Positions 13,395 through 34,401 of a stretch of DNA of 34,401 nt are shown one piece after another. How positions within the stretch are numbered: the first letter of the stretch is position 1; each line of letters opens with the position of its first letter. The notes beneath the pieces were generated by a model. It was not told the origin of the DNA. It saw nothing but the letters and a program-made list of their open reading frames with translations, and made no database searches. The translations under genes and the position numbers were made by a program. Source of the DNA: Dysgonomonas hofstadii. Lineage in GTDB: Bacteria > Bacteroidota > Bacteroidia > Bacteroidales > Dysgonomonadaceae. The stretch is from assembly GCF_014196915.1 (NCBI RefSeq), contig NZ_JACIEP010000025.1, forward strand, positions 1 through 34,401. The letters are read 5' to 3'.

Positions 13395-13400
13395 TAATAT

Positions 13401-13428
13401 AAAACGCTCAAATTATTCTGGGCGTTTT
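13401..13428 (+). terminator. Hairpin terminator after the PH-domain gene
   Basis: Inverted repeat AAAACGCTC (13401-13409) and GGGCGTTTT (13420-13428), with one G:U-compatible pair and a 10-base loop. The right arm ends in a T-run and the left begins with an A-run, so it could work in both directions. Confidence 0.65.
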
Positions 13429-13452
13429 ACATAACCTAAATAGCCATGTTGC

Positions 13453-13460
13453 TAATTTTG
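13453..13460 (+). promoter_or_regulatory. Bacteroidota-type -7 box before the AbiGi-like gene
   Basis: TAATTTTG matches TAnnTTTG and ends 28 bases before the start of the AbiGi-like gene, downstream of the preceding terminator. This suggests the cargo gene has its own promoter. Confidence 0.4.
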
Positions 13461-13488
13461 AGGCGTTATTTATATAAATATTTTCTCC

Positions 13489-14304
13489 ATGTCTAATTAT
13501 AGAACATCTTCATTATTTCACTATACCACGTATAATGGTCTAAAATCCATCTTAAAACAAGGAATTATTCCTAATTATTGCAAAGAAGATTTTTCCATAG
13601 ATGGAGATGCTTTTGCCGTTGGAATTCCTATGGTAAGTTTTTGTGATATCCCACTAACAAGGACATATGAGTTTACTAAAAGGTACGGACATCATGCCAT
13701 CGGATTAAGTAAAGAATGGGCATTGAAAAATCAAATCAACCCTATATTATACATTAAAAATGAGGATATTATCTCTTCGCTAAAGTTCTATAAGGAATAT
13801 GAGCTTTACTCCAAAGCAAAAATGGCAACTGGACTAATGAATTCCATTGACTTAAAAATGAACCCAATTAAGGTTTATAATCCATCTAAAGAGTATAAAT
13901 CTTCCCACAATGCAAACTTAAATCTATTTGGATTCTCTAAAAAATATATAGGAACACATAAAGGTAAAGAGCAATGTAACTACGAAGAAAATGAGTGGAG
14001 ATACATTTTGAAAGAAGAAAAAGATATAGCTTGGAAATGGGAAGAGGCAGAGTATTTAACATGGAGAGGTTCGGGAGATAAAAAGCCTGAGCCTGATAAA
14101 TATTTGAAAGCCCAAACACTTAAATTTGAGATAGAAGACATTTCATACATTATAGTTCAATTTGAAAATCAAAGAATGGGAATTGTAAACTATATCAGCA
14201 AATTATCAAAATTGTGTGAATCCGATCCAATATTGAATGATGAAAATAAAAAACTGCTCTATTCAAAGATAATTTCGATAGAACGCGTTAGAACAGATTT
14301 CTGA
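13489..14304 (+). CDS. AbiGi-like abortive-infection protein (orphan)
   Basis: This 271-residue protein resembles the AbiGi family (half of the lactococcal AbiG phage-resistance pair). Visible signatures are SLFHYTTYNGLKSILKQGI (about 8-26), the NYCKED segment after it, IPMVSFCDIPLTR, and YGHHAIGLSKEWA. The opening H-[YF]-T...L.xIL..G pattern is also seen at the NAD-binding end of DarT- and DUF2971-like ADP-ribosyltransferase folds, so an enzymatic toxin role is possible; that is inference. No AbiGii partner is adjacent. The region is AT-rich and has its own promoter and terminators, as expected of cargo. It lies between the PH gene and the outer boundary motif of the left module. Confidence 0.65.
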   Translation: MSNYRTSSLFHYTTYNGLKSILKQGIIPNYCKEDFSIDGDAFAVGIPMVSFCDIPLTRTYEFTKRYGHHAIGLSKEWALKNQINPILYIKNEDIISSLKFYKEYELYSKAKMATGLMNSIDLKMNPIKVYNPSKEYKSSHNANLNLFGFSKKYIGTHKGKEQCNYEENEWRYILKEEKDIAWKWEEAEYLTWRGSGDKKPEPDKYLKAQTLKFEIEDISYIIVQFENQRMGIVNYISKLSKLCESDPILNDENKKLLYSKIISIERVRTDF

Positions 14305-14354
14305 TATAATATTGGCATATGTTATTTGTAGGAATAGTAATGCCCGAGGGGAGA

Positions 14355-14386
14355 ATGTTTCATCTCAGTATCGAAGGAAGAAACAT
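14355..14386 (+). terminator. Possible terminator after the AbiGi-like gene
   Basis: ATGTTTC (14355-14361) and GAAACAT (14380-14386) form a 7-bp stem with an 18-base loop. The T-rich boundary motif starting at 14392 follows. The long loop makes this weak. Confidence 0.3.
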
Positions 14387-14391
14387 CTGAC

Positions 14392-14447
14392 ATGGCTTTT
14401 TTGCTTCTTTTTCTCCCGCATAAAGTCCTCTTGTGGCTCATGGAAAA
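14392..14447. repeat. Outer boundary motif, left copy (inverted relative to 28244-28299)
   Basis: The reverse complement of 14392-14425 matches 28267-28299 over 33-34 bases with one A-run indel; the core includes CTTTATGCGGGAG followed by AAAAAGAAGC. A second shared piece, the complement of TTTTCCATGAGC (14436-14447), matches 28244-28255. The copy lies at the convergent 3' ends of the PcfJ operon and the AbiGi-like gene. Function unknown; it marks the outer end of the module. Confidence 0.75.
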
Positions 14448-20662: not shown

Positions 20663-21982
20663 ATGAAAACAGAAATGAACGTGCTTCTGCACATTAAAAA
20701 AACGGAAGTCGGCGAAGATGGTCTTTGCCCGCTTATGGGTAGAATAACGGTAAAAGGCAAATCCGATTCTACCGCTCAATTCGGGTGTAAAATAAGAATA
20801 GACCCGAAGCTATGGAACGCCACATCACAAAGATACACGGGGAAAAACCGTATTTCAGTCAGAACAAACAGAGAGATAGAATCCCTGCTGCTCCTGCTAC
20901 GCGCCCGGTTTAACGAGCTATACGATTTGGGCGATAAGTTTACGGCACTTGACGTAAAAAATGCTTTTCAAGGTATTGCCGCCGCTCAAACAACACTACT
21001 CGGATTATACCGCGAACACAACGAAGAATATGCTTTGCGCGTCGGGGTTAATCGTGCTGTCAGCACCTACTACCAATACTGCAATACCTATCGTTTACTC
21101 TCCGAATTTATCAACGTCAAATATAAGGTTTCAGATGTAGCCGTAAAATCATTGGATTGCTCCTTTATCGAAGCCTTTGATTACCACTTACGGGTAAACG
21201 AAAAGCAAAAGCCGGTTACCATACTCGGACATATCAACCGTCTGAAAAGCATTACTTATAATGCTGTTTATAAAGGTATCCTGACTGTTCACCCATTTAA
21301 AGACTTTTCGCCGGAAAAGCCGGAAAAGAAACAGCTATACCTTACCGAAGAAGAACTATCAAAGCTGATGAATACCACCTTTGATACGCCAAACCGTAAT
21401 TTCACACGGGATATGTTTGTTTTTTCGGCCATGACCGGATTTTGTTATTGCGATATGTGCAACCTGACGGAAACCGATGTAAAAAAAGATAATGACGGTA
21501 ATCTGTGGATCGAATCGAACCGCCAAAAGACAGGCACACCCGAAAACGTAATGCTGCTGGATATTGCGGTCAAAATCATGGAGAAATACAAAGGCTTGGC
21601 AGGCGGCGGTAAATTGTTCCCGATGCTTCACAATACAAGCATCAATCCGCACTTAAAAAAGATGGCGAAACAATGTGGTATAGAGCGTAATCTCACATTC
21701 CATATGGCACGCCACACATTCGCCTCGCAAATATGTCTGTCACAGGGAGTTCCGATAGAAACCGTCAGTCAGGCTATGGGGCATAAGAATATTTCCACGA
21801 CACAGCGTTACGCTAAAGTTACCAATGAGAAAATAGACCGCGATGTTACCGCATTGCACTTCAATATCGCAGAAAAATACACCTTGAAAGGTATTGATGC
21901 CCCGCCATCGACCATTCTAAAAGATATGAGCAGGCGTAAAGTCCGCCCAAGTAAAAAACTACAAATTCAGGAGGGAATATAA
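20663..21982 (+). CDS. Tyrosine recombinase, first of a tandem pair
   Basis: This 439-residue phage-integrase-family protein of Bacteroidota ICE type has an N-terminal arm-binding-like part, a SAM-like core-binding domain (about 110-215) and a catalytic domain with K289 (NRQKTG), H347 and R350 (FHMARHT), H374 (MGHKN) and the nucleophile Y383 (QRYAKV). At the usual first-arginine position it reads TGFCYCDM (C261), a change reminiscent of IntDOT, which also lacks that arginine. Two bases separate it from the second recombinase, so they act together or in sequence. It presumably integrates and excises the right-hand element. Confidence 0.92.
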   Translation: MKTEMNVLLHIKKTEVGEDGLCPLMGRITVKGKSDSTAQFGCKIRIDPKLWNATSQRYTGKNRISVRTNREIESLLLLLRARFNELYDLGDKFTALDVKNAFQGIAAAQTTLLGLYREHNEEYALRVGVNRAVSTYYQYCNTYRLLSEFINVKYKVSDVAVKSLDCSFIEAFDYHLRVNEKQKPVTILGHINRLKSITYNAVYKGILTVHPFKDFSPEKPEKKQLYLTEEELSKLMNTTFDTPNRNFTRDMFVFSAMTGFCYCDMCNLTETDVKKDNDGNLWIESNRQKTGTPENVMLLDIAVKIMEKYKGLAGGGKLFPMLHNTSINPHLKKMAKQCGIERNLTFHMARHTFASQICLSQGVPIETVSQAMGHKNISTTQRYAKVTNEKIDRDVTALHFNIAEKYTLKGIDAPPSTILKDMSRRKVRPSKKLQIQEGI

Positions 21983-21983
21983 T

Positions 21984-23297
21984 ATGAGAAGTACATTCAA
22001 AACGCTGTTTTACATAAACAGGCAAAAAATAAAAGCAGACGGTAGTTGTCCTGTCATGGGTAGAATCACCATTGACAGGAAAGTCAGCCAGTATTATACG
22101 GGCGAAGATATTAACCCCGCACTTTGGGATGTAAAGGCAGGCAGGGTTCTTATTAAAGGCGGCAATGCTAAAGATAAGCAAATGCTTAAAGACATTAATA
22201 TCCGGCTTGACGAGTTGGAGCAACAAGCACAGACAGCCTATAAAACAATCGTGGATACTATTGGCTACGTTTCTTCCGAAATGGTCAGGAATGCAGTTAC
22301 AGGCAGGGCACAGGCTAAAGAAACCCTTATTGCCCTGATGGATGAACATAACGAAGAATATGCAAAACGGGTTGGCATAGACCGTGCCCGCCATACCTAT
22401 ATACGTTACCTGACTACCCGGAAGCACCTCTACAATTTTCTGCAATATAAATATGAGGTGGAGGATATACCTTTGCGCTCCCTTGATATGCAGTTTATTA
22501 AGGATTTCCATTTTTACCTATCGACCGTGTTAAGGCTCAAAACTATTTCGCTGAATGATTATCTGATTCTCCTGCGCAAAATGGGTCGGCTTGCCGTCAA
22601 ACAGCGCACCTTGAAACGCGACCCGTTTGCGGGTTACAGGCTGGAAATACCGCCCATAAACCATCGCTACCTGACAGGCGAACAGCTTGAAAAAATTATG
22701 AATGCCGACCTGCGGACTTACCGCTTGTGCCATACCCGCGACCTCTTTATTTTCGCCGTGTTTACAGGCTTAGGCAGGGCGGAATTGGCAGAGCTTACCA
22801 CCGACCATATTATTACGGAGAAAGACGGTTCAAAATGGATTTACATTAATCGCCTGAAAACAAAAGCCGAATGCCGTATCAAACTATTGGACATTCCGCT
22901 TCAAATCATAGAGAAATACAAAAGAGAGGGCAAGGAAAATAAAATCTTTTATGTCCCTGCGACTTGTAGCCTTTGTCGCAGCCTTAAAATGATAGAGGAA
23001 ATATGTAAGTTGGATTTCCACCTCACATTCTATACGGCACGCCACACATTCGCGACCGAAACCTGCCTGTCTAACGGAGTTCCCATAGAAACGATCAGTA
23101 AAATGATGGGGCATTCCAATATCCGCACAACACAAATTTATGCGGAAATAACCAATCAGAAAGTCGGGCGTGATTTCGGCATATTGTCTAAAAAGACCAA
23201 AGATTCGTATGCCATTCCCGACGACAAAATGCCTTCCCGCGTTTATCAATGCGGCAGGTACAGCAAATGGAAAGATGAAGTTAAACCGGAATCGTAA
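21984..23297 (+). CDS. Tyrosine recombinase, second of a tandem pair
   Basis: A 437-residue paralogue of the preceding recombinase with the same N-terminal layout (GxCPVMGRITI...) and catalytic domain. Likely active-site residues are K292 or K294 (RLKTK), R353 (FYTARHT), H377 (MGHSN) and Y386 (QIYAEIT). The first-arginine position reads TGLGRAEL with G264 followed by R265, and the HxxR histidine is replaced by Y350, as in some other Bacteroidota integrases. It may be a specialised partner rather than a redundant copy. It is closed by a strong terminator shared with the convergent HTH genes. Confidence 0.92.
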   Translation: MRSTFKTLFYINRQKIKADGSCPVMGRITIDRKVSQYYTGEDINPALWDVKAGRVLIKGGNAKDKQMLKDINIRLDELEQQAQTAYKTIVDTIGYVSSEMVRNAVTGRAQAKETLIALMDEHNEEYAKRVGIDRARHTYIRYLTTRKHLYNFLQYKYEVEDIPLRSLDMQFIKDFHFYLSTVLRLKTISLNDYLILLRKMGRLAVKQRTLKRDPFAGYRLEIPPINHRYLTGEQLEKIMNADLRTYRLCHTRDLFIFAVFTGLGRAELAELTTDHIITEKDGSKWIYINRLKTKAECRIKLLDIPLQIIEKYKREGKENKIFYVPATCSLCRSLKMIEEICKLDFHLTFYTARHTFATETCLSNGVPIETISKMMGHSNIRTTQIYAEITNQKVGRDFGILSKKTKDSYAIPDDKMPSRVYQCGRYSKWKDEVKPES

Positions 23298-25399: not shown

Positions 25400-27388
25400 A
25401 TGACAGCAACTAAGAACAACGGCACAGCCGTAGCAGTACAAGCAACAGAGAACAGCAAGAGCGTAGCAGAAAACGCAAGTGTAGCAACAGGCGCAACCGC
25501 TAAAGGCGTGGAGAAAGCCGTAAACATTCCGTCCGACCTCATAGAGCCGAGCAACTACAACGCCCGAAAGACGTTCGATGCTGATGCACTCAAAGAACTG
25601 GCGCAAAGTATCTCCGTTCATGGACTGATACAACCCATTACAGTACGGCGCAAAGGCGAGAAAGGCGAACATTACGAAATCATTTGCGGGGAACGCCGTT
25701 TTAGGGCGTGCCGTATGCTGAAACTTACCGAAATCCCCGCCATTGTGCGGGAGGCAACCGATGAACAGGCGTATGACCTTTCAATCTCCGAGAACTTACA
25801 GCGGGAGGACGTGCCACCAATGGAGGCGGCAGAGGCTTACAAACGCCTTATCGACACCAAGCGGTACGATGTGGCAAGCCTTGCCCTGCAATTCGGTAAG
25901 AGCGAAAAGCACGTTTACCAAACGCTGAAACTTTGCGACCTCATTAAAGGCATTGCCAAACTTGTAAGAGAGGGTAAGCTGACCGCATCGGCAGGGGTAG
26001 TGATAAGTAAGTATGACAAGAAAATACAGGAGGATATTTTGAACGACCGTTTAGGTAAGGACGGTAACGGCGATTGGTGCAGTATCTCCGCAGGGGTATT
26101 GTCGGGCAAAATAGAGAACTGTTATACAAACAACCTCGAAAATTACAGTTTCGACAAAAGCAAGTGTCTGAAATGTATTCACAACTCCAATAATTTCGAC
26201 CTGTTCGCAGAGGGTGGCGGTTGTGGCAAGTGTACCAATAAAAAATGCCTTTCGGATAAGCAAACGGCGTACCTCGTAGAACAGGCGCAAGCCGTAGCCC
26301 TGCACGACCCGAAACTCGTTTTTGTCGGGGAGCAGTACAGCCACGACAACGAGGCAACCCAAATAATCAAAAAGGGCGGGTACGAGTTTAAGAACGTGCA
26401 AACGTATAACCTCGATTCATACCCCACAGCACCGACCGCACCGCAAGCCTCCGAGTATTCTAAACCCGAAGATTTTGACAAGGCGCAGGAGAAATACGGT
26501 AAGGAACAGGAACGGTACACCAAGCAGACGGCGCACCTTGACGAACTCAAAGAACAGGGCAAAATACGTGTGTACGCTAAAATCGGCGATAGCAATGTAA
26601 GAATGTACTACAAAGAGGTAGCGACCAAAGACACCAAAAGCAACGAGCAATTAATCGCCGACCTTACCGCCAAGAAGAAACGCAACACCGAATTACAAGC
26701 AGAAAAGACCGCCGAGAGCGTGAAAGAACTTTTGCGGACGGACGAACTGCCACAGTCGGCGTTTACCGCAGACGAAGAAACAGCCATGTATTTTTTCATG
26801 TTGTCGAAATTGCGCCGTAGCCACTACAAAGCCGTAGGCTTGAAAGAAAACGATTATTACGGATTGACGGACGAGAAAAGGCTCGAAATAGCCTCTACCC
26901 TTACCGAAGAGCAAAAGACCGTAATACGGCGCGACTACCTGTATAGCCACCTAACCGAGAGGACAAGCACCGTTGTCGATACAAAAGGCGGTTTGCTACT
27001 AATGTTCGCTAAACAGCACCTACCCAAGAAAACGGCAGAAATCGAGGCTACCCACGCCGAGGATTACGGCAAGAAAAATGCTCGATTGGATGAACGTATC
27101 GCAGGGCTGAAAAAGGCTGAAAAGAAAACGAAAGCAGATGCTAAAGCAAAAAAGGCAGAGCAACCCGCCAAAGCCGAAAAACCCGCTAAATCGGACGAAA
27201 AACAGGCAAAGAAAGCCGATAAGCCGAACACAGTGACCACCACAGCGGTAGCGGTAATTCCTAAAGCGGATGCAGTTGTAACAATGCAGTCTAAACCTGC
27301 CACCACAGCAACGCCGACAGCGGGAAGGGTACAGATTGTAACCGTACCCCCAAAAGGCAAAACGGCAAAGGTTGCCACAGCAGTATAA
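25400..27388 (+). CDS. ParB/RepB/Spo0J-family protein with cysteine cluster
   Basis: A 662-residue protein. After an alanine-rich start, the ParB N-terminal nuclease-like/CTPase domain is clear: DLIEPSNYNARKTF at about 47-60, GLIQPITVRR, GERRFRACR at 97-105 and ENLQRED at 131-137. A ParB HTH follows (about 157-178). A cysteine cluster (C256, C259, C275, C278, C283) could bind a metal. The last ~100 residues are lysine/alanine-rich. It is much longer than chromosomal ParB and no ParA is adjacent; the ParA at the left end belongs to the tra operon. A role in maintenance or transcriptional control of the ICE is inferred. Confidence 0.88.
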   Translation: MTATKNNGTAVAVQATENSKSVAENASVATGATAKGVEKAVNIPSDLIEPSNYNARKTFDADALKELAQSISVHGLIQPITVRRKGEKGEHYEIICGERRFRACRMLKLTEIPAIVREATDEQAYDLSISENLQREDVPPMEAAEAYKRLIDTKRYDVASLALQFGKSEKHVYQTLKLCDLIKGIAKLVREGKLTASAGVVISKYDKKIQEDILNDRLGKDGNGDWCSISAGVLSGKIENCYTNNLENYSFDKSKCLKCIHNSNNFDLFAEGGGCGKCTNKKCLSDKQTAYLVEQAQAVALHDPKLVFVGEQYSHDNEATQIIKKGGYEFKNVQTYNLDSYPTAPTAPQASEYSKPEDFDKAQEKYGKEQERYTKQTAHLDELKEQGKIRVYAKIGDSNVRMYYKEVATKDTKSNEQLIADLTAKKKRNTELQAEKTAESVKELLRTDELPQSAFTADEETAMYFFMLSKLRRSHYKAVGLKENDYYGLTDEKRLEIASTLTEEQKTVIRRDYLYSHLTERTSTVVDTKGGLLLMFAKQHLPKKTAEIEATHAEDYGKKNARLDERIAGLKKAEKKTKADAKAKKAEQPAKAEKPAKSDEKQAKKADKPNTVTTTAVAVIPKADAVVTMQSKPATTATPTAGRVQIVTVPPKGKTAKVATAV

Positions 27389-27439
27389 ACGAAAGTATTA
27401 ACAGGAGCGGGATTTTTCCCGCTTCATATTATAACGATT

Positions 27440-27622
27440 ATGAAAGCAGTATTTGTATTATTTCAAACGGACGTACACCGAACAAAGGCGAGCCGTGTAT
27501 TTTTCGGCGTATTCTCCACGGAGGTAAAAGCGATAGACCACGCCAAAACGAACGGATTATACACCTATGATGCGGAGGTTGTTATCATTGAGTGTGAAAT
27601 TGATAAATTCGGCGAGGTATGA
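27440..27622 (+). CDS. Unknown 60-residue protein
   Basis: Begins MKAVFVLFQTDVHRTKASRV and ends VVIIECEIDKFGEV, a compact alpha/beta-looking small protein with no membrane helix. It overlaps the next start by 4 bases (ATGA). It follows ParB after a 51-base gap. Its size and late position recall the gene at 14643-14825 in the left module, but homology cannot be shown by eye. Function unknown. Confidence 0.55.
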   Translation: MKAVFVLFQTDVHRTKASRVFFGVFSTEVKAIDHAKTNGLYTYDAEVVIIECEIDKFGEV

Positions 27623-27957
27623 GAGCACACAGATTTTGCAACAGGTGCAATACAGAGGTAGAAAGGGAAACCAAATTAGACTATCCGTATTATTGCCCCC
27701 AATGCGATGAAAACCTGTACAGTTTTGAAACCCAAGACGAGCAAAGCGATACTTCGCAGGGCGTTGTACGCCTTTGCGCTCACAATGTCGAATGGTGGTT
27801 AGACGGTGGCGGACACAATTTGTCGGAAACGGACGAAGAACATATTTGCAGTATGTTATCGCAGAACTTTTTTGCGGGGGAGTTGTGCAGTACCACCGCC
27901 AACGGAGGCGAGGTTTACGGATGGTGGAAAATTCAACGCATAGACATAGAGCTATGA
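27619..27957 (+). CDS. Zinc-ribbon protein, 112 residues
   Basis: The N-terminus has two C-x2-C pairs, FCNRCN (C7/C10) and YCPQCDE (about C26/C29), forming a probable zinc ribbon. An acidic linker and a C-terminal domain with NVEWWLDGGGHNLSETDEEH and GGEVYGWWKIQRIDIEL follow. The gene is coupled by 4-base overlaps with both neighbours. I recognise no named family; a nucleic-acid-binding or regulatory accessory role is plausible. Confidence 0.6.
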   Translation: MRAHRFCNRCNTEVERETKLDYPYYCPQCDENLYSFETQDEQSDTSQGVVRLCAHNVEWWLDGGGHNLSETDEEHICSMLSQNFFAGELCSTTANGGEVYGWWKIQRIDIEL

Positions 27958-28181
27958 GAATAGAAACCTATACGGGCAATCCCGTTGTTACCAACCAAAC
28001 ACAGTTTTATGAACTGGAGGAGCTTTTACACGAGATTGAACCGAATTGCGAAACGGTGCAACTTCGTACCGACCGTCTTATAATTGTGAATTTACGCCGT
28101 AAAACGTTCCACTATCCGCGCAATCCCTCGATTGAGTGGGTGGCTGCCCGACTGCACTACATGGTCGAAAATGGGTTGTAA
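27954..28181 (+). CDS. Unknown 75-residue protein, last gene of the right-module operon
   Basis: Starts MRIETYTGNPVVTNQTQFYE and ends WVAARLHYMVENGL. I use the ATG at 27954, which overlaps the upstream stop (ATGA), rather than a longer frame from 27774 that would run through the zinc-ribbon gene. No motif is recognised. A terminator hairpin lies 30 bases downstream. Confidence 0.55.
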   Translation: MRIETYTGNPVVTNQTQFYELEELLHEIEPNCETVQLRTDRLIIVNLRRKTFHYPRNPSIEWVAARLHYMVENGL

Positions 28182-28211
28182 ATGCCTTTTGTTGTGATTT
28201 TAAGAACTCAT

Positions 28212-28248
28212 GTCCGGGTCGAGGAAACTTTGCCCGGACTTCTTTTTC
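28212..28248 (+). terminator. Terminator of the right-module (ParB) operon
   Basis: Stem GTCCGGG (28212-28218) and CCCGGAC (28233-28239) with a 14-base loop, followed by TTCTTTTT. It directly precedes the outer boundary motif, as the 14453-14472 hairpin does in the left module. Confidence 0.75.
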
Positions 28249-28299
28249 CATGAGCAATTAGCGGGGCTTTATGCGGGAGAAAAAGAAGCAAAAAGCCAT
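28244..28299. repeat. Outer boundary motif, right copy (inverted relative to 14392-14447)
   Basis: TTTTCCATGAGC (28244-28255) and a 33-base block (28267-28299) beginning CTTTATGCGGGAG match the reverse complement of the left copy with one indel; the ~11 bases between them differ. It lies at the convergent 3' ends of the ParB operon and the Hachiman cargo operon. Read from the cargo side it is T-rich and may also help stop transcription. Confidence 0.75.
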
Positions 28300-28302
28300 T
28301 AT

Positions 28303-28332
28303 TCAGCATCTATTCAACTGGATTGATGCTGA
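28303..28332 (-). terminator. Probable terminator of the Hachiman cargo operon
   Basis: TCAGCATC (28303-28310) and GATGCTGA (28325-28332) form an 8-bp stem that overlaps the end of the last cargo gene. On the minus strand, T-rich sequence of the boundary motif (GGCTTTTTGCTTCTTTTT) follows within about ten bases. Confidence 0.45.
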
Positions 28333-28495
28333 TTATTTGAAATATTACCCCTTTTTTCCCTAATTGATTTTTCACATAATCGTTAATCCAAACTTTCGCA
28401 TTTGCTTCTCTCACTTTTTCATTATGGATATTATCCGAAAATTCTAAGTTATGAATTTCTCCTTCTACTCTGAAAGTTACAATAAATGTTCTCAT
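28310..28495 (-). CDS. Unknown 61-residue protein ending the cargo operon
   Basis: Starts MRTFIVTFRVEGEIHNLEFS and ends GVIFQIISINPVE, an alternating beta pattern with a central helix (REANAKVWINDYVKNQL). It could be a small ferredoxin-like fold. It begins 12 bases after the DUF3800 stop on the same strand, so it is likely co-transcribed with the defence genes. I recognise no family; a small antitoxin-like or accessory role is only speculation. Confidence 0.5.
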   Translation of the reverse strand: MRTFIVTFRVEGEIHNLEFSDNIHNEKVREANAKVWINDYVKNQLGKKGVIFQIISINPVE

Positions 28496-28507
28496 ATTTT
28501 TAAATCT

Positions 28508-29632
28508 TTATTTGCTTCGAATATCAGATATTAACTGCATTTTATTAACTTCTTCATAACTATCAACATTGTGTAGGAAAGCTTTATTTTTAAAGTCGGA
28601 TTTATTTAACAAGTCAAGATAATTATCAAGATTTACAAGTTGAATATCATTAAATCGACCTATTTCCTCTCTTATTTCACGGTGAGTATGGGTATTTATA
28701 AAAGAGGTCATTTTTCCTACTAAACCTACTAATACATCTGACACTTGAATAAATACATCGTTTTGCGAATCTTCGAAAATATAATTCTTAAACTCTACAC
28801 CATTGTCCAATAACCGATGTTCTCCAATTGCAGTCTGAATATCATTCTCGTTATCAAATATATGATTAGAATTTTTGAACTTATAAAGAGGTGCTAAATA
28901 AAAATGAGTGAAATTTTCCAATAACACATGATCCTTTTCATCCATTATAAAAGGTAGAGATTCCTTCTTTTCAGATTCTCGCAGTATTTGTTTTAGCGAC
29001 GTTAATCCAAAATGGAAATTAAAGTCGTCTTCATATTTCACAAACAACTGGGATAAGCTATTTATAAATGGAATAATGTCTTCTTTCCTCAAATTAGGAT
29101 ATTTGTAATGACTAAATATAGCAATTACATCTTCTATTTCACATTTACATAGAAAATATAGGTCGTTTTTGAGCTTATTAGCGAAAGGCATTCCAAGTTG
29201 TTGTGCTATTTTGGAGTTCACAATAGCAGAGTCAACAATGTCAGCAATAGACCAATACAAAAAATTTAAGCTTGTATAGTGCAGATATACCGGTGCGTCT
29301 ATTATCTTTTTTAGAAAAGCATCAAGCTTGGTTGATTTTAAGCAATCCTGAAACTCACCATGTGCTATATGTTTTAATTTAACCTCTTTTACATTAGGCT
29401 GCAATCTTAATCCATGAAAAATATCATCTAATTGAGGTTTATCTCCTTCATATAACACACCACCTAAAACGAAATTTGAATGAAAGGAATAATTGAAACC
29501 ATCCTCCCTTACATAAAATGTTTTTATATTGTTTGTTTCGTCATAGTAAAAGGTGAAACTTGAATCAAAATCTAATGTTGGATTTGATAATCTGATAAAT
29601 GTTCTTATTTCATTAACTTCAAAATCTATCAT
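28508..29632 (-). CDS. DUF3800-like protein in the Hachiman operon
   Basis: A 374-residue protein with the DUF3800 hallmark FYYDETNN (D31/E32 at about 28-35), a VLGGVLYEGD stretch after it, and the later FIQVSDVLVGLVG motif where a conserved aspartate is usual. DUF3800 is thought to adopt an RNase H-like fold with acidic residues and is widespread near mobile elements; its activity is not established. The start overlaps the end of the PIN gene by 14 bases, which indicates close translational coupling. A nuclease role with the PIN protein is inference. Confidence 0.7.
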   Translation of the reverse strand: MIDFEVNEIRTFIRLSNPTLDFDSSFTFYYDETNNIKTFYVREDGFNYSFHSNFVLGGVLYEGDKPQLDDIFHGLRLQPNVKEVKLKHIAHGEFQDCLKSTKLDAFLKKIIDAPVYLHYTSLNFLYWSIADIVDSAIVNSKIAQQLGMPFANKLKNDLYFLCKCEIEDVIAIFSHYKYPNLRKEDIIPFINSLSQLFVKYEDDFNFHFGLTSLKQILRESEKKESLPFIMDEKDHVLLENFTHFYLAPLYKFKNSNHIFDNENDIQTAIGEHRLLDNGVEFKNYIFEDSQNDVFIQVSDVLVGLVGKMTSFINTHTHREIREEIGRFNDIQLVNLDNYLDLLNKSDFKNKAFLHNVDSYEEVNKMQLISDIRSK

Positions 29633-30737
29633 GGTAATCTATTTCTGGGTGAACGATTTCTATATCATCTGAAAGTATCTCATTAAAAGCAGTATCAACA
29701 ATTAAAGACATTTTTAGCTTTACCGGAATTGTTTTTGAAGCTGCCATATAATGCTTATTCCAATCGTTGTTCCATATATAAGGCAACTCATCCTCATCCA
29801 TACACATTGCATCACTTTTGAAAATGAAGAAATCAAATTCACAATCAACATCCACATCAATTTCAATAAGAATTTCATCCTCTGAAATTTGCCGGACGTC
29901 TGTTACTGTATATGAAGGTTCATCAACGCTAACAACTGATGGGTTTTCAAATTCTTGTCTGAATGGGCTTTCTTCATAATCAAACTCACGATGTGACAAG
30001 TATTTTATAACTCTATCTTCTATTTCAGAATTTAAATCAATATCATTGTATCGCTTGTTCTTATTTAGTTTTGTTAAGATACTTTTGAGTATCTTTTGTT
30101 GTGGCTTTATATAATCATTAACGAATATATCAATTTCTTCTACAATCCTAACAGAGCCTTCTTGAAGCCCATTATTTACTAAATCTTCTTTCAAATCGGG
30201 GTGTAGAGAAAAATCTTTTTCGCAAAAATCCTTATAGTTCTTATTGATGAAAACAATTTTAGGAATATCAAATAATTCGGGTGATTTTTCACATAGAGAT
30301 TTTACGTTCTCCCAAATTAGAGCATCCCTATAACCCTTTCCACTTTCTTGGAATGGTTTTTTTCTCGCCAGATCTCTTTTAACAAGTTCTTTATGCTTTA
30401 TGGTTGGGTATGGGATAATGTTTATTCCTAATTTTTTAATTTGCTTCCTAAATTCTTTTTGATACTCTTCTACTTCTTTGATAATATATTCATCGGTAAT
30501 AGGGTTATCAAAAACCGTTTTTCCAATAAGTCTTTTTAAATCGGATATTCCCTTATCTATTTTAGAGTTTCCTAATTGCAATTGTTCTTTATATTTGTTG
30601 ATAGATTCATCAATTACTAATTCCGGAATGTACACTGTACCTCCTATTGACTTTGTCGATTCACATAAATTTTTAATTTTTGCACCTTTAAGGTGGAAAT
30701 CACCAAAAATTATATTTGTGTCAAGAACTACTTTCAT
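29619..30737 (-). CDS. PIN-domain protein (DUF4935-like) in the Hachiman operon
   Basis: A 372-residue protein with an N-terminal PIN-like nuclease domain: VVLDTNIIF (D6), IPELVIDES (E39/E44), GKGYRDALIW (D138) and IVFINKNYKDF (N166/D170), in the order and spacing expected of metal-dependent PIN RNases of the DUF4935 type. About 180 further residues include an acidic beta-rich region (DEILIEIDVDVDCEFDFFIF). It starts 21 bases after hamB, a gap holding a small ATATAC/GTATAT inverted repeat, and overlaps the DUF3800 gene by 14 bases. Probably an RNA-cleaving effector of the defence operon; that role is inferred. Confidence 0.75.
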   Translation of the reverse strand: MKVVLDTNIIFGDFHLKGAKIKNLCESTKSIGGTVYIPELVIDESINKYKEQLQLGNSKIDKGISDLKRLIGKTVFDNPITDEYIIKEVEEYQKEFRKQIKKLGINIIPYPTIKHKELVKRDLARKKPFQESGKGYRDALIWENVKSLCEKSPELFDIPKIVFINKNYKDFCEKDFSLHPDLKEDLVNNGLQEGSVRIVEEIDIFVNDYIKPQQKILKSILTKLNKNKRYNDIDLNSEIEDRVIKYLSHREFDYEESPFRQEFENPSVVSVDEPSYTVTDVRQISEDEILIEIDVDVDCEFDFFIFKSDAMCMDEDELPYIWNNDWNKHYMAASKTIPVKLKMSLIVDTAFNEILSDDIEIVHPEIDYHDRF

Positions 30738-30758
30738 ATATACTTAAATGTATATGAT

Positions 30759-33308
30759 TTACAATAAATTTCTTACCTCATCATACTCCAAAGTTCCGGG
30801 AGTGAACTTTGCCAATAGAATCGCTTTATTTATATTTTTAAGTTTTCCATTCTCTACGGTTAATGCACCTTTACATTCTTTATTGATTTTACTTGTAGTA
30901 TGTCTGGATAATCCCATGTTTTGTAAAGCGATCATTATTCGGTTTTGTGTTCCGTATTCTAATAGAGTAGCCCAATTCTCGCCAGCTTTTTCCTCTCCTA
31001 ATAAATTTTTCAACATTAAGTAATAATGGTTAAAATACTTCTCAAATTGAAATCGAAGGATATGTTCTATATCATTGATTATATTGCCGATTAGAATATT
31101 CACATGTGTTTTGTTTGATTTATTAAAAGCTTCATATTCATTATATGACACCTTTAATGTTTTCCCACTCCCTGAATAATAATCAACTGAGCCTGAAATA
31201 ATTTGATTTAGACTTTCGTCATTAATCCATTTGTTCATTAATGTTGCATAATATTTCAAGCTATTTTCATCAGACAAATGCTTGTTGGTTTGTTTCCAGT
31301 TGTAGAGTTTATGAAATGAGAGCAGGGTATTTTTACATGATTCGTAATTAACTTGCTTAGGCAAAGTTATAGATGTTCGTTGGGCATGTAAATATTTTAA
31401 ACGTTTGTAGGCAATATCTTGAGCATCTAACCCGATTGATTCATTTGAGTTCAGTATTGAGTACGGTGTTTCTAATTTTGAGGCTTTTGATTTTGCCAAT
31501 TCTATGATGTTATTCTTGTTTTTCTTAATTAATTCATCAATAATTGGACTGCAGTAGCCCGTTTTTGGTTCTAAAGTATCTATACATATAATATTAGCTA
31601 TATATTTCAATATATTTTTTTCTTCTTCGGAACCTGATTTAACTTCATTGCCTTTTAATAGAGTTTCAATTTTCTTTAGATTATGATTGATGCGAGAGAA
31701 AACAGATGGAACAAGTTCAATTTCTTTTTTATTGAAAAATGAAGTATCATCCCAAGAGCAATCTGAATGCTTCACACAAAATACATTTCCTTGCAACTCT
31801 TTAGATAGTCGCCCAGCTCTGCCTGCTAGATTCCAAAAATCGATTGGTTTTAATGTTTTTGTTGATTTTTTGTTATTAAGAATAAAAAGATTTTGAGTAG
31901 GCATATTTACCCCTTCTAACAATGTTGATGTACAAAACACAAAATTAATCTCACCCTTTTGATATAAGTCCTCGACTAAGTTCCTTATTAATTGCGGCAT
32001 ATTACCAAAATGATATGCAATCCCCTTTTTTATGATTTCAGCTAAATAATAATCAGGGTGAATGTATTCTCGGATAATTCGAGAAGCCTTATTCAATGAT
32101 TTATTTCCTTCTTCTAAATTAATTGTATCGGCAAATGACTTTGCATATTCAATCGTTCTTGATCTGGTATTACAGTAAACAAGATTACTCCTCTTTCCTA
32201 AATGTGATAAAGCCTGATTAATTGTTTTAACATTATTAGACAGCGGACTTTTTATTTTAATAAGTTCATTATTTGAAAAATAAGAAAACTCTCCATTTTC
32301 TAAGTCTGCAAAATATAAGTTTTGAGCAACAGGAGTTTCATTTGTTTTGAAATGATTTTTCTCTTGAGTATTTCGAAATATTTTAAGAAAAACTTCTGGG
32401 TTAGATACATTCGGAGAAGAAAAATATAGTTTTATATTAGGATGCTTTTTAAGAGTTTTCTCTATGGATGTGTAAGTTGTGATACTCCTTGAATCTTCAT
32501 TTTGAGCGATCTTATGGGCTTCATCAACAAAAAGAAATCCAATAGGAGGATTCTCTTGAGAAATATAGCTAATCAACCTTTCTGGCGTTAACACCATTAT
32601 GTAATTAATAATTTCTTCTGTGGAAAATTCAGAGATGTTAGAATTGGTAGCAATTCTATACTTGTATTGCTCAAGTAGTACTCCCAAGTCTTTTTTTAAT
32701 TCTAAAGCAAATTGATTAATTAAAGCTCTTGTAGGCACAAGCACTACCAAATTCTCAGGTGGTTTATTTTGTATAGCCTTACGAATAAATGCTTTAATAA
32801 TAAAAGACTTCCCCATAGATGTTGGCCCCGAAAAACTAAATTCGCGGGCACTACTCAACTCGGAAAATAGTTTATACTGTGTGTCTGTGAAAAATATTCC
32901 TTCTGATTCTGGAACTTCTTGAATTATTTTCTTTGCTTCTAATTCAACTAATCGGTCAAATGGTAACTCCGATTGATTGTTGTTTTCTTTTTCCAAATAA
33001 GCTACTGCCGGAAAATTTCCAAGATTATAATAAACTGCTTTAGATACTGTACAATAGTATGGGTTTTGCTGAAAATATGGGTTGAGATATGTTATTATTC
33101 TGTATGCATAATTTCTCGCTTCTGATATTGATGTAACTGACAATAAATCAGCAAAACGAAGTAAATCTTTAAACTCTTTTTCTGAATAAGAATCTTTGTT
33201 ATCAATCTTTAACTGATGAAAAATTGAGCGTTCTGTACAAATCTTAAAGAGTTTAAGAAAATACTGATTTGATAATATCTCTAATGCAATTTCGTCAGCT
33301 AATACCAT
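30759..33308 (-). CDS. hamB: HamB, DEAH-box helicase of the Hachiman defence system
   Basis: This 849-residue superfamily 2 helicase is complete. Walker A GPTSMGKS is at 161-168, motif Ia VPTRALINQ at 191-199, LTPERL at 240-245, DEAH at 262-265, SSPN near 297-300, NLVYCNTRS at 375-383, STLLEGVNMP at 461-470 and the arginine-finger motif NLAGRAGR at 493-500. A long helical C-terminal part follows. It lies two bases after the DUF1837 gene, the defining arrangement of Hachiman. In studied systems HamB senses DNA and controls the HamA nuclease. The gene is clearly AT-rich relative to the ICE core. Confidence 0.85.
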   Translation of the reverse strand: MVLADEIALEILSNQYFLKLFKICTERSIFHQLKIDNKDSYSEKEFKDLLRFADLLSVTSISEARNYAYRIITYLNPYFQQNPYYCTVSKAVYYNLGNFPAVAYLEKENNNQSELPFDRLVELEAKKIIQEVPESEGIFFTDTQYKLFSELSSAREFSFSGPTSMGKSFIIKAFIRKAIQNKPPENLVVLVPTRALINQFALELKKDLGVLLEQYKYRIATNSNISEFSTEEIINYIMVLTPERLISYISQENPPIGFLFVDEAHKIAQNEDSRSITTYTSIEKTLKKHPNIKLYFSSPNVSNPEVFLKIFRNTQEKNHFKTNETPVAQNLYFADLENGEFSYFSNNELIKIKSPLSNNVKTINQALSHLGKRSNLVYCNTRSRTIEYAKSFADTINLEEGNKSLNKASRIIREYIHPDYYLAEIIKKGIAYHFGNMPQLIRNLVEDLYQKGEINFVFCTSTLLEGVNMPTQNLFILNNKKSTKTLKPIDFWNLAGRAGRLSKELQGNVFCVKHSDCSWDDTSFFNKKEIELVPSVFSRINHNLKKIETLLKGNEVKSGSEEEKNILKYIANIICIDTLEPKTGYCSPIIDELIKKNKNNIIELAKSKASKLETPYSILNSNESIGLDAQDIAYKRLKYLHAQRTSITLPKQVNYESCKNTLLSFHKLYNWKQTNKHLSDENSLKYYATLMNKWINDESLNQIISGSVDYYSGSGKTLKVSYNEYEAFNKSNKTHVNILIGNIINDIEHILRFQFEKYFNHYYLMLKNLLGEEKAGENWATLLEYGTQNRIMIALQNMGLSRHTTSKINKECKGALTVENGKLKNINKAILLAKFTPGTLEYDEVRNLL

Positions 33309-33310
33309 AC

Positions 33311-34213
33311 TTACGCAGTCTTAAGTTTTTCTATAATTTTCTTTCTAGTATTATCTAATTCTGAGAAAGGAATAATATAGATATAAAAACTATAACCTGT
33401 AAATTCACTCTTTTTGATTTGGTTATTGAGTGTTGTCAATACATCCCTAACGGCCTTTTCTATCTTACTATTCATCAAAGTTCGGAAATCAGAATTTTTC
33501 ATTTTTCGTTCCTCATCCGTTATAGGAATATCAAACCCAAGGAAAATACCAAAAGAGTGGTCAATATTCAGATTTTCGTCATTTTCCGTCGGGATTAATA
33601 ACTTTTTTAATACAGTAGTAGATTCTTCGGTTGCAGTTTCTTTTAATATATTGCTATTAACCAAACTAATTTCGTATCGCAACTTATTCAGGTCATCTTT
33701 CAATAAAGTATTGATAGAACTAAACGCCTGATAGATTCCGGTTTGCAGATTGGCGTCTAACTTGGATTCACCAAAGACAAATTGATATGTTGAATCATCT
33801 ATTTTCAAAAGATGTACTCCATCTGCCCCATTTACATAATTATTTACAGCCGTTTTCAGTTCTAACTTTGTTAATAATTTAGGAGCATTTAGATGAGACT
33901 CTAACATACAATACAACAATATTTCCCCAAGCTCTCCGTCATTACTTTCTGCTTTTCTTAATTTTTCTTTAGCCTTTGCAACTAATGACCCATATTTCTT
34001 CTGAGTACACAATTCATCATATGTACTACGAGAAAGAGCATACGTTGTGAGGATATTACCTAATTCTTCCGTGAGTGTTTCGTAAGAGAAACAGTTATTG
34101 GTTATTTTTAAAGCAAAAAGATTTAATGTATTCCCATTCTCCAACGATTCGTTTTCTATTATTTTAGAAAACAAATTCAAAAAATTATTTTGTACATCCG
34201 TTCTTAAAGGCAT
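33311..34213 (-). CDS. hamA: HamA, DUF1837 nuclease of the Hachiman defence system
   Basis: A 300-residue protein with DUF1837/HamA features: DGELGEILLYCML (E94/E97) at about 92-104, KLELK at 116-120, then GADGVHLL (D131) and VFGESKL with E149-x-K151. This D...ExK layout is a PD-(D/E)XK-type nuclease core, so the catalytic residues appear intact. HamA is the effector of Hachiman and is held in check by HamB until phage DNA is sensed (known for studied systems). It is the first gene of the five-gene minus-strand operon, with a -7 promoter box about 27 bases upstream. Confidence 0.83.
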   Translation of the reverse strand: MPLRTDVQNNFLNLFSKIIENESLENGNTLNLFALKITNNCFSYETLTEELGNILTTYALSRSTYDELCTQKKYGSLVAKAKEKLRKAESNDGELGEILLYCMLESHLNAPKLLTKLELKTAVNNYVNGADGVHLLKIDDSTYQFVFGESKLDANLQTGIYQAFSSINTLLKDDLNKLRYEISLVNSNILKETATEESTTVLKKLLIPTENDENLNIDHSFGIFLGFDIPITDEERKMKNSDFRTLMNSKIEKAVRDVLTTLNNQIKKSEFTGYSFYIYIIPFSELDNTRKKIIEKLKTA

Positions 34214-34239
34214 GAAATATTAATTACTGTTGAATACCA

Positions 34240-34247
34240 CAAAGTTA
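34240..34247 (-). promoter_or_regulatory. -7 box of the Hachiman operon promoter
   Basis: On the minus strand TAACTTTG fits TAnnTTTG and lies about 26 bases before the hamA ATG. Upstream sequence is AT-rich with no obvious -33 TTTG. It is the only good match in the 188 bases between hamA and the end of the window. Confidence 0.5.
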
Positions 34248-34316
34248 ACAATTATTTTAACATAATATTTATTTGTTTGATTTATAATCAGAAGGCTCTC
34301 TAATAGTGTATAATAT

Positions 34317-34401
34317 AATTGAAAAGTAGTCCACTTAGTAATTGAAAAGTATACCACTAAGTGCTCTCGGATGAGATTGATTAAAGATATTTATTCTTCA
34401 T
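34317..34401 (+). mobile_element. Possible end of an IS21-type insertion sequence (partial)
   Basis: Two adjacent 23-base repeats (34317-34339 and 34340-34362) begin AATTGAAAAGTA and end in CCACTTAGT or CCACTAAGT, with three mismatches. Such tandem repeats of a gaaaagt..ccac type are typical of the ends of IS21-family elements. An open frame starts at the ATG at 34371 (MRLIKDIYSS...) and runs off the window; it could be istA, but too little is visible to say. Confidence 0.4.

Follow-up and report, generated by a model that had tools for sequence, protein, structure and literature searches.

Hachiman, in the available portion of its description (HamAB; Tuck et al. 2024, PMC12278908), is a two-gene system in which hamA precedes hamB, HamA carries a D-GExK site and HamB carries helicase motifs. 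Extended Hachiman as a general idea is not new, since HamMAB, in which a further nuclease gene lies near the Hachiman genes, has been published (PMC12799240, available text). The locus analyzed here is a row of five genes, namely hamA, hamB, a PIN_12 (DUF4935) gene, a DUF3800 gene and an open reading frame (ORF) of 61 amino acids (aa), at one end of a contig of Dysgonomonas hofstadii (NZ_JACIEP010000025.1). The contig was analyzed over its whole length of 34,401 nucleotides (nt), hereafter the window, and is contig C25 of the 44 contigs in the 5.04 Mb genome. The row shares with studied Hachiman the gene order, an intact HamA D-GExK site and the HamB helicase motifs, while differing from it in three more genes that show no sign of belonging to the system. 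A preliminary description had put the row forward as an expanded five-gene Hachiman, a claim that comparison with relatives does not support. The locus is best explained, at a probability of about 0.8, as a stack of defences in which an autonomous two-gene Hachiman stands beside separately acquired PIN_12, DUF3800 and small-ORF genes in a cargo slot of low guanine-plus-cytosine (GC) content in a conjugative transposon. This reading follows from the closest hamAB being a bare pair, from sister loci without PIN and DUF3800 genes, from the varied neighbours of DUF3800 genes, from the GC contrast and from the variable cargo of sibling elements.

The Hachiman pair and its relatives

By their sequences, HamA and HamB are unambiguous Hachiman proteins encoded by an ordinary adjacent pair of genes, as had been proposed from the HamA residues and the HamB motifs. 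The HamA catalytic residues are intact, and so are the helicase motifs of HamB, including GPTSMGKS at 161, VDEAH at 261 and NLAGRAGR at 493. The PADLOC match of HamB is full length to HamB1. Among solved structures found by sequence, the best for both proteins was 9wh1 (an AbpA-type protein with its helicase), in which HamA residues 7-299 of 300 match AbpA residues 244-525 only. Going by studied Hachiman systems, this pair is predicted to degrade DNA in an ATP-dependent manner when triggered by DNA ends, and to protect from phage.

HamA matches were present in 19 of 395 genomes of the phylum (own genome included) at 21 places. Apart from the window and one place in Flavobacterium ichthyis, the remaining 19 places showed no PIN or DUF3800 gene within the flanks that were fetched, some of them truncated where a contig stops. 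Profiles built for this analysis identified 11 of these 19 as clear hamA-hamB pairs, six as having HamB without HamA (Pfam's HamA model does match at these six) and two as having neither. The closest hamAB found (G415), from a genome of the same taxonomic order, has 65-66% aa identity and is a bare pair: tblastn across the 18 kb fetched detected no PIN or DUF3800 gene, and the next ORF downstream, of 172 aa, had no Pfam or PADLOC match. A HamB tree with 22 rows placed the window with G415 and then with G186 (support of 100/100 and 99/98), and both of these loci are without PIN and DUF3800 genes.

No relatives of HamB were found among viral contigs with HamB as the query. Four HamB neighbourhoods were opened out of 148 plasmid records; three were annotated without any PIN or DUF3800 gene, whereas the fourth was unannotated. 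A plasmid locus, L214 2455-7388 on Vibrio parahaemolyticus plasmid P2, encodes a hydrolase of the metallo-beta-lactamase (MBL) fold, a 420-aa hypothetical protein and a HamB-like helicase, and is HamMAB-like by annotation only.

Neighbours of DUF3800 genes

A DUF3800 scan was performed across genomes of 84,980 species, from which the best 80 of 100 relatives were kept, and viral contigs added nine loci. Within this sample hamAB adjoined DUF3800 in one of the 80 genome loci (F. ichthyis, L066 = G375) and in none of the nine viral loci, and a PIN gene was beside DUF3800 in none of the 89. The gene order hamAB-PIN-DUF3800, for which a survey had been suggested, was kept in no other locus seen, and DUF3800 adjoined hamAB in F. 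ichthyis only. Records of plasmids with a DUF3800 relative numbered 147; the six neighbourhoods opened were without hamAB and PIN, and some had toxin-antitoxin-like or other neighbours. In the P2-like phage fiAA91-ss a DUF3800 gene lies alone between FI and G, presumably the position of the P2 fun gene, with neither hamAB nor PIN. In conjugative elements of 11 genomes (loci L066-L074, L076 and L089), DUF3800 genes belonging to the same subfamily as that of the window share a single site beside a TraG-like gene, as judged by eye, and at 10 of these 11 loci neither hamAB nor PIN was in view.

The partners of DUF3800 genes differed. In 27 of 97 loci an ORF of 80 aa or more lay within 60 nt of DUF3800 and in the same direction; L085 and L131, whose adjoining ORF is a fragment of the interrupted gene itself, are not counted, and chance ORFs are possibly included. 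Close spacing is thus weak evidence for a joint system. Ten large or recurring neighbours, from ten loci, were picked by hand for comparison with PADLOC, yielding GajA in L100, L112, L126, L135 and L136, GajB in L143, PD-T7-1 in L078, type I restriction in L097, Dsr1 in L137 and a weaker match in L128. The defence neighbours touch DUF3800 in L078, L097, L100, L126 and L137 and are one gene away in L112, L135, L136 and L143. DUF3800 genes elsewhere thus often have other defences in their vicinity, adjoining Gabija, PD-T7-1, type I restriction or Dsr1 genes or standing a gene or two from them, with a spacing that in some cases resembles that of an operon.

Genes of one PD-T7-1-like cluster (L077, L078, L098, L143; PADLOC names L078 only) adjoin DUF3800 at -1 to 38 nt in both orders. 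PD-T7-1-like genes are a commoner DUF3800 partner than Hachiman in the sampled loci.

Several observations weigh against a simple stack. The five genes are alike in strand and GC content, have near-operon spacing and include a 14-nt overlap of the PIN and DUF3800 genes. Flanks of at least 4.7 kb on both sides were available for 50 of the 80 genome loci, and the other 30 were shorter than this on at least one side; given these short flanks and the restriction to the best 80 of 100 relatives, some DUF3800 partners may be out of view. DUF3800 was found in just three of the 395 phylum genomes, and in two of them (D. hofstadii and F. ichthyis) it is beside hamAB, which taken alone would favour a link but finds no confirmation in the larger sample. 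HamAB lies 5.5 kb from DUF3800 on the opposite strand in L137, as does HamB at about 5 kb, also on the opposite strand, in the viral locus L151. Furthermore, F. ichthyis carries DUF3800-hamA-hamB at a spacing of 106 nt, within a different conjugative element and with a distant hamAB lineage. The HamB proteins of the window and of F. ichthyis share about 25% identity across 404 aligned residues and belong to different clades; the F. ichthyis HamA also keeps a GETK motif, and its DUF3800 gene is upstream of hamAB, whereas that of the window is downstream. The F. ichthyis row is a second independent meeting of DUF3800 and hamAB. Two such meetings are what one would expect of genes that Bacteroidota conjugative elements commonly carry as cargo, if DUF3800 and hamAB are both of that kind.

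The same meetings would also fit DUF3800 as a plug-in second effector of Hachiman, acquired at least twice by distant hamAB lineages (in the window and in F. ichthyis), such that the HamB alarm would also trigger cleavage of RNA or RNA-DNA hybrids, with PIN as a further plug-in here; we consider this quite unlikely. A single five-gene Hachiman, in which DNA-end sensing by HamB would also activate PIN and DUF3800 and so add RNA destruction to DNA destruction, is very unlikely. The shared strand, tight spacing and low GC content agree with it, as do the recurrence of DUF3800 beside a distant hamAB lineage and the existence of another form of extended Hachiman, HamMAB (PMC12799240, available text). 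It is opposed by the sister hamAB loci without both genes and by the finding that, among the loci seen, no other joins PIN to DUF3800 or to hamAB. HamA is also catalytically complete here, unlike nearly all protease-fused HamA proteins in the accessible part of the HamMAB paper. The five-gene system was rejected on co-occurrence, the gene set not being kept together across the relatives seen.

The DUF3800 and PIN_12 proteins

Both extra proteins are nuclease-like, as had been suggested. The DUF3800 protein matches PF12686 at 8.7e-7, and its residues 4-371 of 374 match the PADLOC candidate PDC-S51, i.e. over its full length. An RNase H-like fold is predicted for it, and conserved acidic residues are present, with D31 and E32 as the putative catalytic ones. 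Pfam detected no TPR domain in this protein, and no solved structure was found for it by sequence. Associations of DUF3800 with structured RNA are mentioned in the available text of one of the two papers on CRISPR accessory nucleases (PMC10910872 or PMC12669027). As for a structured RNA partner, window 27300-34401 gave two Rfam matches, both below gathering scores, and in seven DUF3800 loci Rfam matched nothing but parts of group II introns, in L072.

The PIN protein scored 102.7 bits against PF16289, compared with a curated cut-off of 32, and its acidic residues D6, E44 and D138 are invariant among nine sequences. Its full-length relatives are distant, at 26-30% identity by tblastn. Relatives were found in four of the 395 phylum genomes and in two of 295 genomes of the order, own genome included in both counts, the other order genome having a 54-residue match. 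With PIN as the query, viral contigs yielded no relatives. The PIN_12 family as a whole is above cut-off in 25 of the 395 genomes. Outside the window, the shortest distance between PIN_12 and HamA within a contig is 11.4 kb, in G363 (place lists compared by eye). The distribution of its relatives suggests that PIN is a separate cargo gene.

A second possibility is two systems, Hachiman and a translationally coupled PIN-DUF3800 RNase module, perhaps with the small ORF, as a unit of its own. The 14-nt overlap, the 12-nt gap to the 61-aa ORF and the nuclease-like character of both proteins would suit such a module, which is nevertheless unlikely in view of the 0/89 DUF3800 loci with PIN, the absence of DUF3800 beside PIN relatives of 26-30% identity in the stretches seen, and the occurrence without PIN of DUF3800 proteins 50-57% identical to that of the window. 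PIN-DUF3800 was rejected as a conserved pair on the count of DUF3800 loci.

The structure model of PIN was poor (predicted local distance difference test, pLDDT, of 55.9), and a sequence search found no credible solved structure. Foldseek returned no match at E <= 0.001 for either the PIN or the DUF3800 model, and VapC structures were among the better neighbours of the PIN model (probability 0.85-0.98, E 0.03-0.13). These VapC neighbours raise the idea that PIN is a VapC-like toxin restrained by a neighbour, stabilizing the cargo block instead of acting against phage. This idea is highly improbable: PIN is 372 aa long compared with 132-134 residues for VapC in the listed chains, the model is the poor one described above, and Pfam and PADLOC found no antitoxin family among the five products.

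A variable cargo slot in a conjugative transposon

Much of the window is a Bacteroidota conjugative transposon encoding a TraG P-loop protein, TraM, DUF4138, PcfJ/PcfK, ParA-like and ParB proteins and two tyrosine integrases. The five genes are located at its right end and have a GC content of 30.2%, compared with 31.4% for window 13395-14391 and 41.8-41.9% for the genes of the element itself. The sibling elements of G409 and G412 share about 80% identity with the window through parB and 76-77% through 27949-28302 (27949-28297 in G412), and then diverge. The last approximately 60 nt before the divergence (window 28244-28302) recur in siblings. A BLAST search with window 28200-28302 yielded 16 copies across 12 fetched sibling stretches and the window, in nine genomes including its own. 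The border stretch was matched in eight of 31 related genomes, and a stricter pattern in four of 25 genus genomes, own genome included in both; no copy was found in plasmids, nor was near-identical plasmid DNA found for window 9500-34401. Some copies are on the parB side, like window 28244, and others on the PcfJ side, like window 14392. Copies differ by 1-nt indels, which makes a kept reading frame unlikely, and covariation of the short inverted ends was not seen by eye. The border element is a conserved, probably non-coding sequence at the boundary of core and cargo.

On the far side of the border element, siblings contain SIR2, a STAND NTPase, SIR2-pAgo or different cargo, with defence genes making up much of it. 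The cargo of G409 includes Mrr-like (below cut-off), DUF3800, HNH, SIR2 and AlbA-AbiTii proteins, and two direct border copies, 8.2 kb apart, flank a defence cluster there (L174). G412 carries an EAD11-NB-ARC-TPR protein, G397 a SIR2-pAgo and a Septu-like pair, and G411 DUF4365 and PDC-S31 proteins. The slot is a general cargo site, not restricted to defence, because the cargo beside several copies gave no defence match: G412:C238 has a squalene-cyclase-like protein, G405 has ORFs that PADLOC did not match, and G408, G405:C19 and G428 have transporter or resistance-type genes (judged by eye). In L192 a border copy is directly beside a bPH_2 gene, as if the slot were empty. A second low-GC slot in the window, beside an inverted border copy, contains an AbiGi-family gene (13489-14304; PF10899 1.1e-21, PADLOC 102 bits).

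The DUF3800 gene of the G409 cargo (L174 11462-12559, with SIR2, HNH and Mrr-like genes) belongs to another subfamily, matching PF12686 at 3.5e-12 without a PDC-S51 match.

The genes, strand and spacings reported earlier were exact to the base (21 nt, 14-nt overlap and 12 nt from hamB to the 61-aa ORF), and the gap from hamA to hamB is 2 nt. The single promoter-like box and terminator-like hairpin that had been taken to bound the row are both present, and neither is above chance. A Bacteroidota-type TAnnTTTG box is located at 34247-34240, 27 nt before hamA, with no recognisable -33 half; three further boxes are within hamB and DUF3800, and the number of sigma-70-like sites does not exceed that of shuffled sequence (31 vs 34.5 +/- 5.1). 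The 3' hairpin has an 8 bp stem, a 14-nt loop and a T-rich run after it, with a z of -1.42, and 19 of 200 shuffles fold as well; a terminator scan allowing loops of 3-8 did not list it. The 61-aa ORF had no Pfam or PADLOC family and no plasmid match at E <= 1, other genomes having been searched within fetched loci only.

Table 1. Features of the five-gene row, its borders and the comparison locus in F. ichthyis (window coordinates unless another locus is named).
Feature	Coordinates	Strand	Basis
hamA, 300 aa, DUF1837 Hachiman nuclease	33311..34213	-	Pfam PF08878 1.2e-59; PADLOC HamA PDLC00156 399.8 bits; D131 / G148-E149-S-K151
hamB, 849 aa, SF2 helicase	30759..33308	-	PADLOC HamB PDLC00176 1097 bits; 9wh1_B 1.6e-168
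PIN_12/DUF4935, 372 aa, predicted RNase; C-terminal region beta-rich in a low-confidence model	29619..30737	-	PF16289 3.8e-29
DUF3800, 374 aa, PADLOC candidate PDC-S51	28508..29632	-	PDLC05033 423.6 bits; predicted RNase H-like fold
61-aa ORF, gene status uncertain	28310..28495	-	ORF call; no family matches
Border element, probably non-coding	28244..28302	+	Homology with sibling conjugative elements stops here
Border element, second, inverted copy	14392..14447	-	Beside AbiGi cargo gene
Contig-end repeat, 95 nt, probable insertion-sequence end	34307..34401		4 exact copies in own genome
DUF3800-hamA-hamB row, F. ichthyis	L021 3662-8134 (G375) = L066 10001-14473		Order opposite to window

The contig-end repeat, approximately 94 nt upstream of hamA, is probably an insertion-sequence end; one of its copies is at the contig end, another forms the first 95 nt of contig C22, and it holds two 23-nt near-repeats. 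The two tyrosine integrases (20663-23297) are adjacent, have an identical domain make-up and are located between both border-element copies.

Proposed function and significance

Under the stack reading, HamB would scan DNA and load at a free 3' single-stranded end, leading to ATP-dependent activation of HamA, which would then degrade DNA; both steps are drawn from studied Hachiman, whose motifs are present here. DUF3800 would most likely act alone, with its own trigger, as an RNase HII-like nuclease on RNA or RNA-DNA hybrids, as its predicted fold suggests. PIN would most likely be an RNase whose C-terminal region serves in sensing or binding. The close spacing would allow a shared transcript with no gene depending on another, the genes being co-transcribed at most.

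As the locus shows, genes packed closely in a defence island can pass for a new multi-gene system. The locus also indicates that a family of Bacteroidota conjugative elements has variable cargo slots, where a conserved border sequence of about 60 nt precedes differing cargo: Hachiman with DUF3800 and PIN, SIR2, a STAND NTPase, SIR2-pAgo, AbiGi or metabolic genes. Should the rare meetings of DUF3800 and hamAB prove functional, they would give Hachiman another type of accessory effector, alongside the published nuclease-protease pair.

Comparison with known systems

No paper describing Hachiman and DUF3800 together was found in the literature searched, most subscription papers being outside its reach. 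PDC-S51, which the DUF3800 protein matches over its full length, is a PADLOC single-gene candidate for phage defence, whereas the window copy stands in a row with hamAB and PIN. To our knowledge, PDC-S51 is a PADLOC candidate for which no activity test is known. The DUF3800 accessory nucleases of CRISPR types V-A2 and VI-F, in the available text of PMC10910872 and PMC12669027, resemble the window protein in the DUF3800 domain and RNase H fold. The DUF3800 protein associated with Cas12a2 is described there with TPR domains and CRISPR genes, whereas the window protein has no TPR domain found, CRISPR genes not having been searched for.

AbpAB, a Hachiman variant (PDB 9wh1; PMC12278908, available text), has a related HamA-like domain and a helicase, but AbpA combines an N-terminal Cap4-like nuclease with an inactive HamA part, whereas HamA of the window is unfused and has an intact site. 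HamMAB likewise resembles the window in the presence of an additional nuclease gene near a Hachiman locus (PMC12799240). In the accessible part of that paper the extra nuclease is of the MBL fold and lies upstream, whereas the extra genes of the window are downstream; the view upstream of hamA ends after 188 nt, in the repeat. HamA of HamMAB is fused to a protease and lacks its own active site in virtually all cases, whereas HamA of the window, at 300 aa and with the HamA family alone in Pfam, is unfused and intact.

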